Below are positions 37,226-56,449 of a DNA stretch of 64,000 nt, one piece after another. The notes beneath the pieces are model-generated. The model was not told the DNA's origin. It searched no databases and was given only the letters and a program-made list of their open reading frames with translations. Position numbers and translations under genes: made by a program. Source of the stretch: an uncultured Halomicronema sp. (GTDB taxonomy: Bacteria; Cyanobacteriota; Cyanobacteriia; Phormidesmidales; Phormidesmidaceae); contig CALCCA010000006.1 in the NCBI GenBank assembly GCA_937899725.1, positions 1 through 64,000 of the forward strand, in the 5' to 3' direction. Every line of letters begins with the position of its first letter. The stretch's first letter is position 1.

Positions 37226-37336
37226 GATCCCTCACCCCCAATGGCTGAAATCATTCTTTGACAAATTGTTCAGCTCTGACTGGCAACCTTCGCAGGCCGT
37301 CGGGCTTGCCCCTTCCTGAAGGGAATGCTGCTATAT
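37226..37336. repeat. Repeat family A, partial copy
   Basis: Shares the CCCCAATGGCTGAAATCAT start and CTGAAGGGAATGCTGCTAT end with the element at 42-222, with a diverged middle. It directly precedes the phnE start region, so the upstream in-frame extension of phnE lies in repeat DNA. Confidence 0.55.
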
Positions 37337-37414
37337 TTGCCGCGATCGCCCTGCCCCCATACTTTACTGACCGCGCCCCCTCTGATTAACCCTCTCTCGC
37401 CAACTAGATCCACC

Positions 37415-38242
37415 ATGCCCCCAACCGCCGCCGTTGACTCGCCGACCTACTCACCTGAAGTCCATCGGGTGCTGTCACAATCCAAACCGGTCTGGACGCC
37501 CTGGACGATTCTGGGGGTGATTGTGACCCTGGGCATCTTGGTCTACTCCGGCATGGTGAGTGATTTGAGCTTTGTCGAGCTGTTTGAGGGGATCGGCTCG
37601 ATGGCCAACTTGATTTCCAAATTCTTCCCCCCCGATTTCACCCGCTGGGTCAATTACTTCGCCGCCACCATTGAAACCATTGCCATGGGCATTTGGGGCA
37701 CGCTGCTGGCAGTGATTGTCGCCATTCCGCTATCGATTTTGGCCTCCCAAAATATCTGCCCCAATTGGATCGTGTTTCCGGTGCGGCGGCTGCTCGATGC
37801 AATGCGCGCGATCAATGAGCTGGTGTTTGCCCTCATTTTCATTGTGGCGGTTGGACTGGGGCCATTTGCCGGCGTGTTAGCGCTGTTCGTGCACACGGCA
37901 GGCACCCTCGGCAAGCTGTTTTCTGAGGCGATCGAATCAATTGAGCCGGGGCCGGTGGAGGGCATTCGAGCCACCGGTGCCAGTAAGGTACAAGAGGTGA
38001 TTTTTGGCGTTATTCCCCAGGTGATTCCCTTATGGACGTCCTATACCCTCTATCGGTTTGAGGCCAATGTGCGATCGGCCTCAGTGTTAGGCATTGTCGG
38101 CGCCGGTGGCATTGGCGTGACGCTCTATCAAAACTTCCGGTCGTTTAACTATCAGAATGTCTGCGCTATCTTAATCATCTTGGTGGTGACTGTCAGCGTG
38201 ATCGATACGATTTCAGCGCGCATTCGTAACCATTTTGTGTAA
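37415..38242 (+). CDS. phnE: PhnE, phosphonate ABC transporter permease
   Basis: A 275-residue permease with about six membrane helices. The first is WTILGVIVTLGILVYSGMV (about 27-45). The cytoplasmic EAA loop is EAIESIEPGPVEGIRATGAS, the coupling site for PhnC, and FEANVRSASVLGIVGAGGIG is the conserved PhnE block. I use the ATG at 37415 (MPPTAAVDS) because the 30 codons before it fall in repeat-like sequence. It completes the PhnCDE importer and is followed 25 bp later by the TauE-like gene. Confidence 0.93.
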   Translation: MPPTAAVDSPTYSPEVHRVLSQSKPVWTPWTILGVIVTLGILVYSGMVSDLSFVELFEGIGSMANLISKFFPPDFTRWVNYFAATIETIAMGIWGTLLAVIVAIPLSILASQNICPNWIVFPVRRLLDAMRAINELVFALIFIVAVGLGPFAGVLALFVHTAGTLGKLFSEAIESIEPGPVEGIRATGASKVQEVIFGVIPQVIPLWTSYTLYRFEANVRSASVLGIVGAGGIGVTLYQNFRSFNYQNVCAILIILVVTVSVIDTISARIRNHFV

Positions 38243-40405: not shown

Positions 40406-40572
40406 GGAGGAGCCTGGCTAGGATTGCCTCTCAATTGTATCGACTCCGCCACAGGTAGCTCGTCGAAGAGACTTTAGGCTTAAATAAAGGGAACTTGCTG
40501 AAAGACTGACGTTCCGTCGGTTGAACGCGCCTTTCTGCATTCCGAACTCTGAACTCCGACTTCTGAACTCTC

Positions 40573-43077
40573 ATGGCAGATCGCGGCAAGTATCACGGGC
40601 AGCGACTCAAAGTCAAAGACGTGTTGCGGCTGTACGCAGCAGGCGAGCGCGATTTTCGCGGTGCCATCTTGCGCGGCTGCAACTTTCGGGGTTCCGACCT
40701 GTCAGAAGCCAGTTTCGGAAGCAGCAAGATTATTTCCTCTCGATTTTATTGTTGCAATTTACAGGGTGTGGACTTTTCTAAGGCCAAGTTTTACACACTA
40801 CTTCATTTACAAATAGCCTTTTCGTTTATTCCAATGTGTTTTTACGTGGTAAGTCTTTTTGTCCCAGCATTATTTTTTGGGGTTCTCATTTCATTTGTGA
40901 ACCTCGAAGCTGGATACAGCCTAGAAATTTCGGTTATTATCTACATTTTATTTTATTTTTCCCTGTTGCTGATAGTAGCTCATTTGGGTTTCTCACTAGC
41001 GTCCATAAAGAGCATATTTTTATCGACAATATTTACCACTTTAGCTTTTGGAATACTCTCTATCGAGAATTATACTTACACAAAAATCGGAATTTACAAT
41101 AGCCCCACAACATTTGTATACTTCAGTACATTGATATTTGTTTATCTTGCTTTGAATGCCGTCCTGTTCTTAAGTTCTTGCTTCTTTCTAATATCTTTCT
41201 TGTTTAGTAGCGGTGACATAAGGGGATTGCCAAACAAGCATAATAAGCATCTTTGGATTGTATGGTGTCTCTCAAGTCCCATCCTGATGATAGGTGGGAT
41301 TCTCTATGAATCCGCTATCAGTATTGTGGAGCTTGGTGGAGAAAATGCATTAGCAGCTTTTGTGCTAATGGTGATTTCGGCAACTGTCTTTAGCTTCTAT
41401 ATCTCATTTCAGACTGTTCTTGGAAAAGATGGATTTAGATTTGCTACACAATTTGGAGTAGCGTGGTCTTCTCTGCATGGAAATCATTTTGTAGGAACAA
41501 ATCTATTTGGGGCTAATTTTATTGATTCCAGGTTTAGTGACACAGTTTTCGTAGACACATTGCATCAAAAAAACAATCTGAATCTTGTTCGTTTTCATAG
41601 AGCAGAAGGGTTGGATTTTGTTGAGTGGAGTAAGACTATTCTGGCTACTCCTCAGGTGCGGAATTTGCTCGTGACTCTCAACGGCGTTGACCAAAATCTC
41701 TCCGATGCTGATCTACGGGGTGCAAACTTAGCCGGTGCCACGCTGCATCGCATCAACCTCAAAGGAGGTAATCTCAACGGCGGGACGCTGGCAGGGGCAG
41801 AACTCCATGGGGCCAACCTGACTAACGCGCAGTGTGTCGGCACTGACTTTACCTCAGCTCAACTCACCGGAGCCTGTCTCGAAGCCTGGAACATCGACGA
41901 GACCACGATTCTCAAAGACATTGACTGCGAGTACGTATTTCTCAAAGAGCAGCCAGATCGCTACGGCAACCGCGAACGCCGTCCCCACAATCCTGACAAG
42001 ATTTTCCAACCCGGCGACTTTGAGAAGTTTTTCCAAGAACTCACTTACCAAGTCCAGCTTCTCATCCGTAAGGGCATTCAACCAGAAGCTTTTTCTGTAG
42101 CTTTTCATCAATTGATGGAGAAATATACAGATATTACTCCTGAAGCAATTCAAGGGATTGAGAAACGAGATGATGATGTCGTACTAACAATACAAACGTC
42201 TGAGGATACTAATAAAGCAGATATTGAATATACATTTGATAAAAGTTATCAAGCTCATTTGCAACTGCTGAATGATCAAGCAACTCAAAGCTTTGACTTC
42301 GTTAATTTAGAGCATGGGGCCCTTGTTAGACGAGTAGAAGAGCGGTATGAAATTCAACTCATACAAAAGGAAATAGAAATCTCTAATCTTCATGAGACGA
42401 TTGCAATTTCTAAGGCTGAGCGGGAAGCAGAGCGCCAAAAGTTGATCCACCAGTACGAAACTGAACTTGCAAGCTTACAAGAAGAGTATGAAGACTCCAT
42501 TGATTCTCTTATTGAAGACTATGAACATAAGGCCAAGGAATTAGAAGACAAATATCAAACTCAATTACAACAGCAGCAATCTCACATCACTGAAATCCGT
42601 AAGCTCTTTGAGCTCTCTCTGAACCGCCAAATTGTTATTAAAACTGAAGCTACAGCTATGAATCACAGCAACAACCCTGACATTTCGGCCTCGGACGGCA
42701 GTTTCGTCAACACTGGGGACAACCTTCAGGGCAATGTCATTAGCCTGGGTGAACTCAGCGGTCAGGTGACGGTGCAAATTAATCAACTGCCCGATGCCGC
42801 CTCTAGCGCCGATCAGCCCAGCCTTAAAGATCTGCTCACCCAGCTGCAGGCAGCGGTCGAAGCCGACACCGAACTTAGCGAGGTCGAAAAGAAAGAAGCG
42901 CTGGGCGAAGTGGGTAAGCTGGCAGAGGCCGGGACGAAGTCCCAGGAAAATGCGATGCAGCGGATGGCGAAGCGGGCGGCGGCTAATTTGAAGTCGATTA
43001 CCGAGCCGCTGACCGAGGCTTCAAAACTGGCAACGATATGCAAGTCGCTGCTGCCGATGATTATGACGCTGTTTTAG
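40573..43077 (+). CDS. Mosaic pentapeptide-repeat, multi-helix membrane and coiled-coil protein
   Basis: An 834-residue protein. Residues 1-70 carry the start common to cyanobacterial pentapeptide proteins ([21 protein letters not shown], then A(N/D)LXX-like repeats). About 75-300 is an AT-rich segment with six to seven hydrophobic helices. About 305-450 returns to pentapeptide repeats ([20 protein letters not shown]). About 475-590 is a soluble region, 590-690 a charged coiled coil, and 700-834 a GC-rich tail ([20 protein letters not shown]) found at the ends of other cyanobacterial multidomain proteins. Base composition switches sharply at 40.78, 41.65, 42.10 and 42.66 kb, suggesting domain assembly. 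Membrane sensing or defence is possible; function unknown. Confidence 0.75.
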
Positions 43078-43097
43078 GCGGTCTGTAAGCTGGCCGA

Positions 43098-43295
43098 TCA
43101 GCTCGTCGTTGCCGCTGAAGCCTGACTTGTGATTGGCTTGGCGATGTGAACGAGGGCGTCACCTTGATGGATTAACGGGTTTTGGTTGTGGCTGTTCACC
43201 CACCCCTCAACCGAACTCCGCACCAGAATCGGCTGATCGCCTAAGGCATCCGTGATGTCGCCCAGGATAGCTTTAGGGGCGATCGCCTGTTCCAA
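43098..43295 (-). pseudogene. 3' fragment of a succinylglutamate desuccinylase/aspartoacylase-like gene
   Basis: A 65-codon frame reads LGDQPILVRSSVEGWVNSHN, then QNPLIHQGDALVHIAKP. This resembles the extreme C-terminus of this zinc-hydrolase family, where V.GW..G.T..PLV..GDAL.HIA is typical. The catalytic Zn-binding part is absent upstream, where the Uma2 gene begins, so I read it as a truncated remnant. A small independent protein cannot be excluded. Confidence 0.45.
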
Positions 43296-54329: not shown

Positions 54330-54451
54330 TAAGTAGGAAGTTTCAATTAAACGTAAGACACTGTAGGTTGAGGTTGAGGAACGAAACCCAACGCCTGCAT
54401 GGGTTACGCTATCGCTAACCCATCCTACATTTGAATGAGCCCAGCTACTTA
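54330..54451. repeat. Repeat family C, copy 2 (inverted)
   Basis: A 122-bp element bounded by TAAGTAG and CTACTTA. It is the near-identical reverse complement of the copy at 49644-49764 and lies between the XRE gene and the unknown gene. A TTG-started extension of the latter would begin within it, which argues for the downstream ATG. Confidence 0.82.
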
Positions 54452-54502
54452 ATAGCAACGGGAAGATGCACCGTTCAGTTTCTTTATTTGTTTAGTTCTA
54501 AA

Positions 54503-56449
54503 ATGTTCGCTCAGCGCAGTCATAAATACCTAATTGATGCTGCAACCATCATTGCAGGGCTAGAAGGCCAAGAAGGCTCTCTGGAATGCGCCTGCTTGGA
54601 TATTCTCTGGACGCTACTTGAATCAAACCAGATTGAGGTCATGATTCAGTCTGAAGAATGGAACAACTTGAGGAGTCATATCCACAAAAAAATCAAAGAG
54701 CCTGAATGTGCTGAGCAGCTCTTAAATCGGATTAGAAAAAATATTAAACCCGTACAAGAAGGGAAAGACGAAAGGGTCAAGCTCTTATACTTCACTACCC
54801 TGTTTCAGAACGCCCATCAAGATATCGTTTCTATTGAAGATATCGTTTCTCAGCATAGTCCCAAAGCCTCCTACAACAGTGCGAATGCCACCATCGAATC
54901 TCTGGTTTTTCTTTTCTCTGTTTGGTTGACTAAAGAAATTTTCGGCATTGAATTTAGCAGTATCGAAAACCTTGTTGATAATGTAGAAGACTTCTTAAAT
55001 CCTGACGACCTGAGACAAGCAGGTTTTTATAGGGCTGGCGAGGGAGATATTCATCAGAAAAGCTTGCTTTTCTCAGCTGGTGAACTCTCAGGTCAAGAGC
55101 TAAGTGAAAAGCTAGAACAGTATTATCTAGAAGGCAATTTGCCGACCGCCTCTGTCGTAGAATCACTAGCCGATGATTCAGGGCAATTGCTGGTTACACC
55201 TGGTTCAACCCGAGGTTTGGTTCCATCTAGTCAAGAACTCGCTCATCTACTACTTAACAGTCCAGAGCAGACGCTCTCGCTTATTCAAATTGCTTCTGGA
55301 AGTCACGATATGCCGATTAACAGGGCCTCGGATGGAGGATCGGATGGAGATGCCCTACACGCCAGTAGCTCTGTTTTTTATCAGGGCGATGAGCTGTCAG
55401 CGCGATCTCCCAGCTTTGATTACCGATATCTCATTTCCAAGGCGTCCTCGGAGAGCGATGCCGATGGCAAAACTACAGCTGATGACCAAACTACCGGTGA
55501 AGATGATGAACAAGAGACTGAAGACACTTTGGACCCGTCACCCCCATCAGGATTTACCCCCTTCAAAGATTTTGACCGTAACGACCATCCTCTGATCGAT
55601 GCGCCTTCAACGCCTGACAAGCCGACTCAGCCATCGCCAATATTGGGTCAGCCTGATCCAGCGACAGAACCTGATGCAACTGCCCGTGCTGCGAATGCCT
55701 CATCTTTTGGATTTGTTAGAGATGTTGATTCTACCGATCACTCAACCGATGACAGCCATGGCGATTGGATTCATGTGCGCATTTATGATGCCGAGGGTCT
55801 GTCAAATTGGTTATCGCTTGATACTAATAATGACGGAAATGCTGATTGGAAAGCTTTCTATACTAAGGATGAGGTCGGTGATTTTGTAAAACAGTCTACT
55901 AATAGGCTGGAGGACGAAACTGCTAGTCAGATTGATTTGCTCGAACAAGAACTGACTACCCTTCTAGATGATATTGACAAAGATTCGGTCTTTGATCTGT
56001 CTATTCCTACTGTCTCATTCAATGAACAGTTGCTCGAGCAAGTGATCGACGAAATTGGCACTGACTTTTTGGAAGTTTTAGACCATGAAGTCCCAGTAAG
56101 CTCTAAAGGTCAAAAGCAGCCTGGTAGAAATGCACTATCTCAAGCCGCCGTCGATGTAGATTTCTCAGAAAGCACTTCTGGCCTTCTGCTCATGGCCGAT
56201 GACTCCCTGCTGCAAGGAGGCCACGAAATAGTTGACAACCCTGAACGCTCTCTACCGTCGGAAAAGCTGGAAGATCCAATTGGCACTCAGCAATTTTCCA
56301 TGCTGTTTCAGCATCAGTCAGAAAGCTTTCAATTCGGCACGGGGCTACATTCGCTGCTCGATATAGACTCTTCTCATCAGCCTAAAGAATCATTGATTTC
56401 TGTTCCTAGCTTGGCTAGCTCTGGTGGCCCAACACTGTCAATGATGTAG
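54503..56449 (+). CDS. Large AT-rich protein of unknown function
   Basis: A 648-residue protein I do not recognise. Residues 1-180 are mainly helical (SHKYLIDAATIIAGLEGQEG, ESLVFLFSVWLTKEIFG); the LIDAATII start faintly recalls PIN-like nucleases. About 180-290 is helical with polar repeats. About 290-420 is an acidic, Ser/Asp/Pro-rich linker. About 430-470 has WIHVRIYDAEGLSNWLSLDT followed by NNDGNADWK, a possible Ca-binding loop like dockerin or thrombospondin type 3. The rest is low-complexity and acidic. There is no signal peptide or membrane segment. GC content is well below that of neighbours, suggesting transfer. It follows an XRE regulator. Confidence 0.6.
   Translation: MFAQRSHKYLIDAATIIAGLEGQEGSLECACLDILWTLLESNQIEVMIQSEEWNNLRSHIHKKIKEPECAEQLLNRIRKNIKPVQEGKDERVKLLYFTTLFQNAHQDIVSIEDIVSQHSPKASYNSANATIESLVFLFSVWLTKEIFGIEFSSIENLVDNVEDFLNPDDLRQAGFYRAGEGDIHQKSLLFSAGELSGQELSEKLEQYYLEGNLPTASVVESLADDSGQLLVTPGSTRGLVPSSQELAHLLLNSPEQTLSLIQIASGSHDMPINRASDGGSDGDALHASSSVFYQGDELSARSPSFDYRYLISKASSESDADGKTTADDQTTGEDDEQETEDTLDPSPPSGFTPFKDFDRNDHPLIDAPSTPDKPTQPSPILGQPDPATEPDATARAANASSFGFVRDVDSTDHSTDDSHGDWIHVRIYDAEGLSNWLSLDTNNDGNADWKAFYTKDEVGDFVKQSTNRLEDETASQIDLLEQELTTLLDDIDKDSVFDLSIPTVSFNEQLLEQVIDEIGTDFLEVLDHEVPVSSKGQKQPGRNALSQAAVDVDFSESTSGLLLMADDSLLQGGHEIVDNPERSLPSEKLEDPIGTQQFSMLFQHQSESFQFGTGLHSLLDIDSSHQPKESLISVPSLASSGGPTLSMM

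Follow-up and report, generated by a model that had tools for sequence, protein, structure and literature searches.

A mosaic membrane pentapeptide protein from a Halomicronema and evidence for exchange of the membrane core among its cyanobacterial relatives

The gene, its domains and its base composition

The DNA considered here, referred to as the window, is the whole stretch of 64,000 nucleotides from an uncultured Halomicronema sp. (contig CALCCA010000006.1 of assembly GCA_937899725.1, positions 1 to 64,000). A gene at 40573..43077 on its forward strand is a single intact open reading frame (ORF) with an ATG start, and encodes a protein of 834 amino acids (aa) in which pentapeptide repeats, a membrane cassette, further pentapeptide repeats, an alpha/beta domain, a coiled coil, an Asn/Gly/Ser-rich segment and a helical tail follow one another. 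An initial annotation made from the letters alone had described this gene as a mosaic of segments of different base composition, and sharp composition steps are indeed found within the one ORF. Comparison with related genes argues that module exchange in this family is real and recurrent, with the ends conserved and the membrane core replaced as a block.

The features of the gene, all on the forward strand, were delimited with an AlphaFold2 model based on an alignment with 61 family members (mean predicted local distance difference test score, pLDDT, 80), which is confident in the solenoids, the alpha/beta domain and the tail. The conserved N-terminal module (aa 1-60, 40573..40752) comprises a helix at aa 14-22 and the start of a pentapeptide solenoid. 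It is followed by a variable AT-rich cassette (aa 61-360, 40753..41652) consisting of the membrane core and the first part of the second pentapeptide block. Seven helices are predicted at aa 77-302 (40801..41478; helices 77-112, 117-137, 142-167, 183-212, 228-253, 257-282 and 286-302), and in the model this membrane bundle is an insert between two pentapeptide blocks, although pLDDT falls to 42-57 for aa 161-260. The conserved part of the second block, P2b (aa 361-460, 41653..41952), lies in a solenoid predicted to extend to about aa 460, and overlaps a family-specific linker that served as a search query (aa 439-564, 41887..42264). Within the linker lies a predicted small alpha/beta domain (aa 482-548, 42016..42216) with the order helix-strand-helix-strand-strand-helix, resembling RRM or ferredoxin-like folds. 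Long helices predicted at aa 548-610 and 618-695 agree with the coiled coil that had been anticipated, and beyond an Asn/Gly/Ser-rich segment (aa 696-740, 42658..42792, pLDDT under 50 to residue 723) the protein ends in the expected helical tail (aa 725-834, 42745..43074; helices at aa 725-833). Pentapeptide repeats of PF00805 were detected in the N-terminal and central stretches with 85.2 bits against a cut-off of 20.2, and in 61 of 61 family members at E<=0.01; pentapeptide proteins are also among the best 50 Foldseek matches listed for the full model. When the core, linker and tail were searched separately against Pfam, only weak matches below the cut-off were returned, and the pentapeptide models of NCBIfam scored far below theirs on the window protein.

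A GC profile in 100-bp windows contains two falls and two rises within the gene, with GC fractions of 0.57-0.61 at 40550-40699, 0.30-0.44 at 40750-41649, 0.56-0.60 at 41650-41899, 0.31-0.46 at 42050-42699 and 0.53-0.61 at 42650-43049. The GC content at third codon positions (GC3) was compared with that expected from the amino acids of each segment and the codon usage of the 41 other ORFs of the window (chosen mechanically, at least 150 aa, non-overlapping), which is 0.56-0.61 for every segment. Three segments are normal, namely aa 1-60 (0.59, z 0.2), aa 361-500 (0.61, z 0.2) and aa 696-834 (0.68, z 1.7), while GC3 is depressed in the cassette, aa 61-360 (0.33 observed versus 0.57 expected, z -9.1), and in a second AT-rich tract, aa 501-695 (42073..42657), which spans most of the alpha/beta domain and the coiled coil (0.14, z -7.0, for aa 501-564; 0.36, z -4.9, for aa 565-695). 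Since GC3 is low after matching for amino acids, the steps are present at synonymous sites too, and are not merely a consequence of hydrophobic composition. In the other 41 ORFs, 570 windows of 100 codons gave a minimum z of -6.3, with 1.2% under -5; four of six hydrophobic ORFs, including the permease at 37325-38239 (z +1.8), have no GC3 dip (z -0.9 to +2.6) and two have a moderate one (z -4.0 and -4.4). The second tract had been expected to start at the coiled coil; the tract exists, but it begins at about aa 501, inside the conserved alpha/beta domain, so that composition borders do not match domain borders. The 12 lowest of the control windows (z to -6.3) all lie in one ORF of 672 aa at 54431-56449 on the forward strand, which has no Pfam match at E 0.01 and is possibly a recent import.

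The membrane core in related genes

The family is widespread in cyanobacteria and, to judge from the searches made, uncharacterised. All 59 genomes searched with the whole protein contain matches, many of them through the repeats only, and at E <= 1e-8 the linker is present in 146 of the 388 class genomes. In a set of 72,556 plasmid records, 38, all with cyanobacterial names, contain a match to P2b plus linker, always under 60% identity and in 33 cases covering at least 80% of the query; the same query against viral contigs, and the whole window gene and part of the L071 gene (loci and genomes are given L and G numbers) searched as DNA against the plasmid records, returned nothing useful. One variant, g12, is patchily distributed, occurring in 9 of the 26 genomes of genus g12 at E<=1e-40. 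The conserved N-terminal module and C-terminal tail that the initial annotation had pointed to are kept over many cyanobacteria, as are the second pentapeptide block and the alpha/beta domain. Among the open-access papers listed by literature searches, none describes core exchange in this family in its title or the opening of its abstract, subscription papers being outside those searches.

Sixty loci were compared with the window gene, chosen among the linker matches listed and mostly from ORFs of at least 600 aa, rather than sampled at random. One of the relatives is a paralog in the same genome (L072; G000:C128, 7256-9393), which has the same frame, that is, the constant part of the protein as opposed to the exchangeable cassette, and the same tail. 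Its tail is 74% identical and its N-terminal module 57% identical (aa 2-71) to those of the window protein. A frame change in the second pentapeptide block interrupts the gene, which for this reason was excluded from the tree and the pair counts below. The core of this paralog is similar to the L079 core, which comes from another species (51% over 192 aa). Gene pieces also seem to lie just outside the ORF at L096, L091, L080 and L114, and broken members may therefore be common in the family; the N-module of the G106 member likewise lies outside its ORF.

The clearest case of core replacement comes from genomes G016 and G242, in which the gene (L065 and L071, respectively) is at the same place. 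In the upstream 4.9 kb their DNA is 90.3% identical, and in the first 243 bp of the gene region 80%; 855 bp following the N-terminal part are unaligned, after which a 3.8-kb block that starts within the gene and continues downstream of it is 89.7% identical, and another 2.5 kb is 89.6% identical. In the comparison of core pairs described below, the flanks of these two genes are 91% and 92% identical and their protein frames 87%, while the cores share 20% (z 1.3, the level of shuffled sequences). Frame divergence amounts to 0.062 nonsynonymous (dN) and 0.63 synonymous (dS) substitutions per site, and core differences are saturated. Gradual divergence as the source of such unrelated cores was rejected on the frame dS and the alignable flanks of this pair. 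Furthermore, L071 and L074, which come from different species, have related cores (blastp 1e-9; E 4.8e-13), and the L065 core is related to those of L068 and L073 (59 and 57%), contrary to the frames and flanks, which tie L071 to L065.

A second case lies within the genus of the window gene, where genomes G004 and G001 have flanks 89% (716 bp) and 87% (2.4 kb) identical and frames 71% identical, with cores at z 0.6. In this pair the alpha/beta segment is 38% identical versus 86% for P2b, and the tails differ from about aa 740. The segment immediately downstream of the window gene (43078..43274) is alignable as DNA with the flank of the homologous gene in G004, and a little DNA past the stop codon has thus stayed with the gene. 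Among the relatives, replacement of the membrane bundle in place has occurred at two independent syntenic loci at least, with the tail and coil varying as modules too. At L077 (7489-9729, reverse strand) the tail is replaced by another C-terminal segment between gene flanks syntenic with L064, indicating that tails have been exchanged as well. Two other pairs are less extreme, with cores that have diverged far more than frame and flanks yet can still be recognised as related: G207 and G342 (core dS 3.7 versus 0.39, z 15), and G226 and G106 (z 7.8). L065 and L066, whose flanks are 95-96% identical, have cores 99% identical, and cores thus seem to change in jumps.

The comparison of core pairs covered those with frame identity of at least 62% (172 of the 1770 possible), with a stricter set of 92 at 70% or above. 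In the stricter set 11 of 92 pairs have unrelated cores (z<3), five of them involving L071 and four L064, although no frame z in the set falls below 97. The core classes do not cluster on the frame tree, which requires 24 changes in 60 members compared with a shuffled mean of 20.2 (11 are forced by the starred branches), and 14 compared with 13.9 in a strict subset of 41; the quick tree, which has 22 of 57 forks open and four long rows, was used only for this absence of clustering. Thus, replacement of the membrane core, which the initial annotation had suspected for the window gene, is shown in relatives by syntenic replacement and conflicting histories. Homologs of identical architecture with a uniform vertical history in all segments had been named as the contrary expectation, and relatives do share the architecture, but their segments differ in history.

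The cores themselves intergrade. An alternating Ala/Gly-type run of at least 12 residues is found in 29 of 60 aligned cores and is lacking from 31, this run length being the dividing line used between 'repeat' and 'non-repeat' cores. A repeat-type profile that covers the first 85 residues and was made from 17 members recognises 52 of the 60 cores at E<=0.01, and leaves eight, including that of the window, unrecognised. The AT-rich, little-repetitive cores of L067, L074, L077 and L079, which reside in GC-rich genes, nevertheless show similarity to the first two helices of repeat-type cores, as judged by the profile built from 17 of the same members; the word unrelated therefore fits above all L001, L064, L071 and L109.

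The helical tail and its neighbours

The neighbours of the window gene are an amidohydrolase ORF and a Uma2 ORF, and the evidence bearing on function comes from the tail, for which no Pfam model was matched. The PADLOC model PDC-M14B is matched by 30 of 61 family members at E<=1e-3. In five of eight members inspected the matching part is the tail, aligned to about positions 145-265 of the 267-position model, and tails searched alone gave 3.2e-9 (L069, the best), 7.7e-9 (L065) and 4.5e-5 (the window). At E<=1e-6 the model has matches in 15 of 95 relatives, a count that includes family members, and in one of 14 control genomes, that of Methanosarcina acetivorans. We take PDC to stand for phage defence candidate. 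The term itself is absent from PMC9252829.

With the tail of another member as query, matches were found in 61 of 194 genomes. From 30 tail loci, 15 with different or short ORFs were selected, and six of these were scanned with Pfam. In this set the tail is fused to CHAT (L128, 1.4e-11) and to Band_7 (L134, 4.1e-31); eight of the 15 look like pentapeptide-membrane proteins, the repeats of L127 and L142 being confirmed with Pfam, and the rest are short or partial. Two of the 61 family members end in a CHAT domain. The same adaptor-like tail is therefore found in unrelated contexts, on CHAT and Band_7 proteins, on pentapeptide-membrane proteins and on short ORFs without a Pfam match, and by analogy with the effector-associated domains of Kaur et al. 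we read it as an adaptor module.

The neighbourhoods of homologs with the same tail, which the initial annotation had singled out as informative, were examined at nine loci (L172-L180), six of which (L172-L177) are PDC-M14B hits outside the family. A larger gene adjoins each of these six small proteins. It encodes a NACHT or nSTAND protein above the Pfam cut-off in four (L173-L176) and below it in L177 (4e-5), with no Pfam match for the larger neighbour of L172; most of the small proteins inspected are thus adjoined by NACHT/nSTAND genes. Five of the six large neighbours (not that of L176) carry at their start, within 70 residues, an Asn/Gln/Ser-rich segment similar to the one in their small partner, and this shared segment may be how the small and large proteins assemble. 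Elsewhere, L178 adjoins an SNF2 helicase and L180 a pentapeptide gene. The proposed resemblance to modules of defence and programmed cell death thus finds backing in the tail, through PDC-M14B, CHAT, Band_7 and the NACHT/STAND neighbours, and makes a defence or cell-death function plausible.

Interpretation and comparison with known systems

Taken together, these observations suggest a membrane-anchored signalling protein that combines a constant frame with an exchangeable cassette and belongs, through an adaptor, to a conflict or cell-death network, a reading to which we give even weight for and against. In such a protein, homologous recombination through the conserved pentapeptide flanks would import divergent core alleles from related strains, and the solenoid would tolerate the exchange because the bundle is a self-contained insert. 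The tail would act as an adaptor of the effector-associated type, coupling the protein to NACHT/STAND and CHAT-type partners, and the variable membrane cassette would contact something that changes fast, such as a phage product or a partner protein, serving as sensor or membrane output of a stress, anti-phage or cell-death response. A more specific version is a bacterial counterpart of a polymorphic immune or self-recognition locus, with the transmembrane domain itself as the hypervariable part. Whole bundles would be exchanged between strains at one chromosomal position by recombination through the pentapeptide flanks, under balancing or diversifying selection, and the constant tail would feed an NLR/caspase-like (NACHT/CHAT) network; this is a tentative possibility, less likely than not.

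A number of results weigh against the signalling reading. None of the five relatives or paralog loci compared by DNA has a syntenic counterpart of the window gene, whose own exchange is thus argued by analogy with its relatives. The core of the window gene scores z 5.8 against that of L102, 4.0 against L099 and at most 3.1 against the rest of the 59 others, and no donor was found for either of the two non-repeat cores searched (window and L071). Silent cassettes close to the loci were considered and rejected: tblastn with the N-module, core, segment M and tail against the 60 loci and the window, with flanks of about 2 kb in 40 loci and more in the other 20, found none, the hits outside genes being seemingly pieces of the same genes (L072, L080, L091, L096 and L114) or, for the N-module hits in L094, L098, L102 and L122, taken for other pentapeptide genes. 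No PDC-M14B match was obtained for the full window protein, L117 or L121 among the eight members inspected, for the window genome at 1e-6, or for the Band_7 fusion. Beside the window gene, the amidohydrolase and Uma2 neighbours give no defence context and include no NACHT/STAND-like partner, and no defence genes were seen by eye in the neighbourhood of the g12 locus. No Pfam model covers the window protein beyond its repeats, and no enzyme is present in it. Finally, dN/dS, which rests on MAFFT alignments of weakly similar core segments, is 0.18-1.05 in alignable cores where computable and 0.02-0.36 in frames, raised in the cores but not clearly above 1, so that the variation could be neutral.

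Neutral variation is the essence of the view that the bundle is a plain membrane anchor, for which hydrophobicity alone is required, with divergent cores exchanged neutrally. Low GC3 would reflect mutation biased towards AT and relaxed selection on codons where constraint is weak, and the protein, like other cyanobacterial pentapeptide proteins, would be a scaffold with no relation to conflict. Besides the raised dN/dS, this view accommodates the filler-like alternating runs of small residues in 29 of 60 cores and the behaviour of core GC3, which has a mean of 0.40 (sd 0.10), tracks the host weakly and exceeds that of the frame in several AT-rich hosts. It is nevertheless unlikely, because gradual decay cannot give unrelated cores at a frame dS of 0.6 with flanks 91-92% identical, nor the 99% identical cores of L065 and L066; furthermore, the second AT-rich tract covers much of a conserved domain that is not filler, and the links of the tail to CHAT, Band_7 and NACHT are left unexplained. 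Alternatively, the variable bundle might be a pore-forming toxic output, silenced by the pentapeptide and alpha/beta parts and released on oligomerisation of coil and tail. A constant adaptor joined to a variable module is a pattern of conflict systems, as described in part of PMC7159879, and the two members with C-terminal CHAT domains indicate that the family does carry outputs, but the bundle fold is unconfident over aa 161-260 and the core matched no Pfam or PHROGs family, making this rather improbable.

The initial annotation had judged that the AT-rich core looks acquired, and its composition-based argument, extended to both AT-rich tracts, would be acquisition from an AT-rich donor outside the family. 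The sharp GC3 borders (z -9.1, -7.0 and -4.9) speak for this view, as does the lack of a convincing relative of the core in the 388 class genomes, where aa 74-300 matched only itself and a marginal sequence with stops (E 0.0066). However, low core GC3 is typical of the cassette position: of the 36 members whose frame GC3 is at least 0.5, 34 have a cassette with lower GC3 than the frame, ordinary repeat-type cores included, and in several AT-rich hosts the cassette lies above the frame. Regressed on the central block in 60 members, core GC3 has a slope of only 0.24, compared with 0.72 for N (n=58), 0.71 for P2a, 0.81 for M and 0.88 for the tail (n=59), and the eight unrecognised cores are not significantly more AT-shifted than the other 52 (Mann-Whitney p 0.49). 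This composition fits alleles circulating between hosts, or a mutation equilibrium in a lightly constrained stretch. Moreover, the sole end-to-end relative of the second tract (M and coil) is in the family (G012, 59%, GC3 0.53/0.50), and no donor of the window core was found in 50,697 phage records, nor in viral or genome contigs, where the searches could find close relatives only; the core, tail and coil are likewise without a match in PHROGs. AT-richness as the sole argument for foreign origin was therefore rejected, its inference from composition being weaker than the conclusion drawn from it, and outright foreign acquisition is improbable; exchange is argued instead from syntenic replacement and conflicting histories. 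A chimeric contig or sequencing error, which a draft assembly of 216 contigs might invite, is hardly credible, as one open frame spans all four composition borders and cassette GC3 is at least 0.15 below that of the frame in 23 of 60 members, in other genomes as well as this one.

To our knowledge, it is usually an extracellular, ligand-binding or catalytic region that varies in bacterial conflict proteins; in the present family exchange in place affects the part embedded in the membrane, with purifying selection acting on the remainder of the gene. The protein may be a fast-changing part of a stress or anti-phage response, and if selection maintains the variety of its cassette, the family would provide, on a single frame, a natural set of membrane alleles with which to ask what cyanobacterial phages or neighbours target. 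Through the shared tail, NACHT/CHAT-type signalling would be connected with a large class of cyanobacterial pentapeptide proteins that have no assigned function.

Among known proteins, those labelled 'pentapeptide repeat-containing protein' in cyanobacterial records of PLSDB (PF00805) share the pentapeptide solenoid, and their labels name the repeat only, not cassette exchange or the tail. In HglK-type membrane pentapeptide proteins of cyanobacteria the membrane helices come first and the pentapeptide repeats after, and by this description they differ from the present family in frame and tail. The helical tail of the family matches the C-terminal part of the component B models of PADLOC PDC-M14, and five of the six small PDC-M14B-like proteins stand beside NACHT/nSTAND-like genes, one of these below the Pfam cut-off. 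Unlike PDC-M14, the window gene is single and lacks such a partner, and its pentapeptide, membrane and alpha/beta parts fall outside the model.

The closest likeness is to the TRADD-N and effector-associated domain (EAD) systems, described in parts of PMC7159879 (Kaur et al., eLife 2020) and PMC8195603 (eLife 2021) as combining a constant adaptor with rapidly varying modules in multicellular bacteria, predominantly cyanobacterial. Pentapeptide repeats, caspase-like and STAND partners, and a predicted RRM-like fold between other domains are common to both. That fold, in the alpha/beta domain (pLDDT 93-96 over the aa 482-548 block), had no Foldseek match at E<=0.001, and its structural matches are generic ferredoxin-like folds (Z 5-6). 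In model mc69b0a8e209b (residues 49-131) several C-terminal alpha/beta domains of MscS are among the tied matches (Z 5-6), a likeness that may reflect only the common ferredoxin-like fold. Despite the predicted fold and the context, membership in TRADD-N was rejected: that family has a tiny residue plus Ser (or Cys) in the turn between beta2 and beta3, and here the turn has Gly in 53 of 60 members, but the residue after it is Asp in 32 of 60 and Ser in only two (the window protein has Asp-Asp). In profile searches no TRADD-N hit was found with Pfam in 61 members at E 0.01, no TRADD is among the seven PDB sequences matched at E<=10, and none is among the best 50 matches listed by either Foldseek or VIA-align. 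By analogy, then, the window protein may work like the TRADD-N/EAD systems without being filed as TRADD-N, with the difference that the portions of those two papers drawn on here describe whole domains changing between proteins and make no mention of a membrane core exchanged in place at a fixed locus, the pattern seen in relatives of the window gene.

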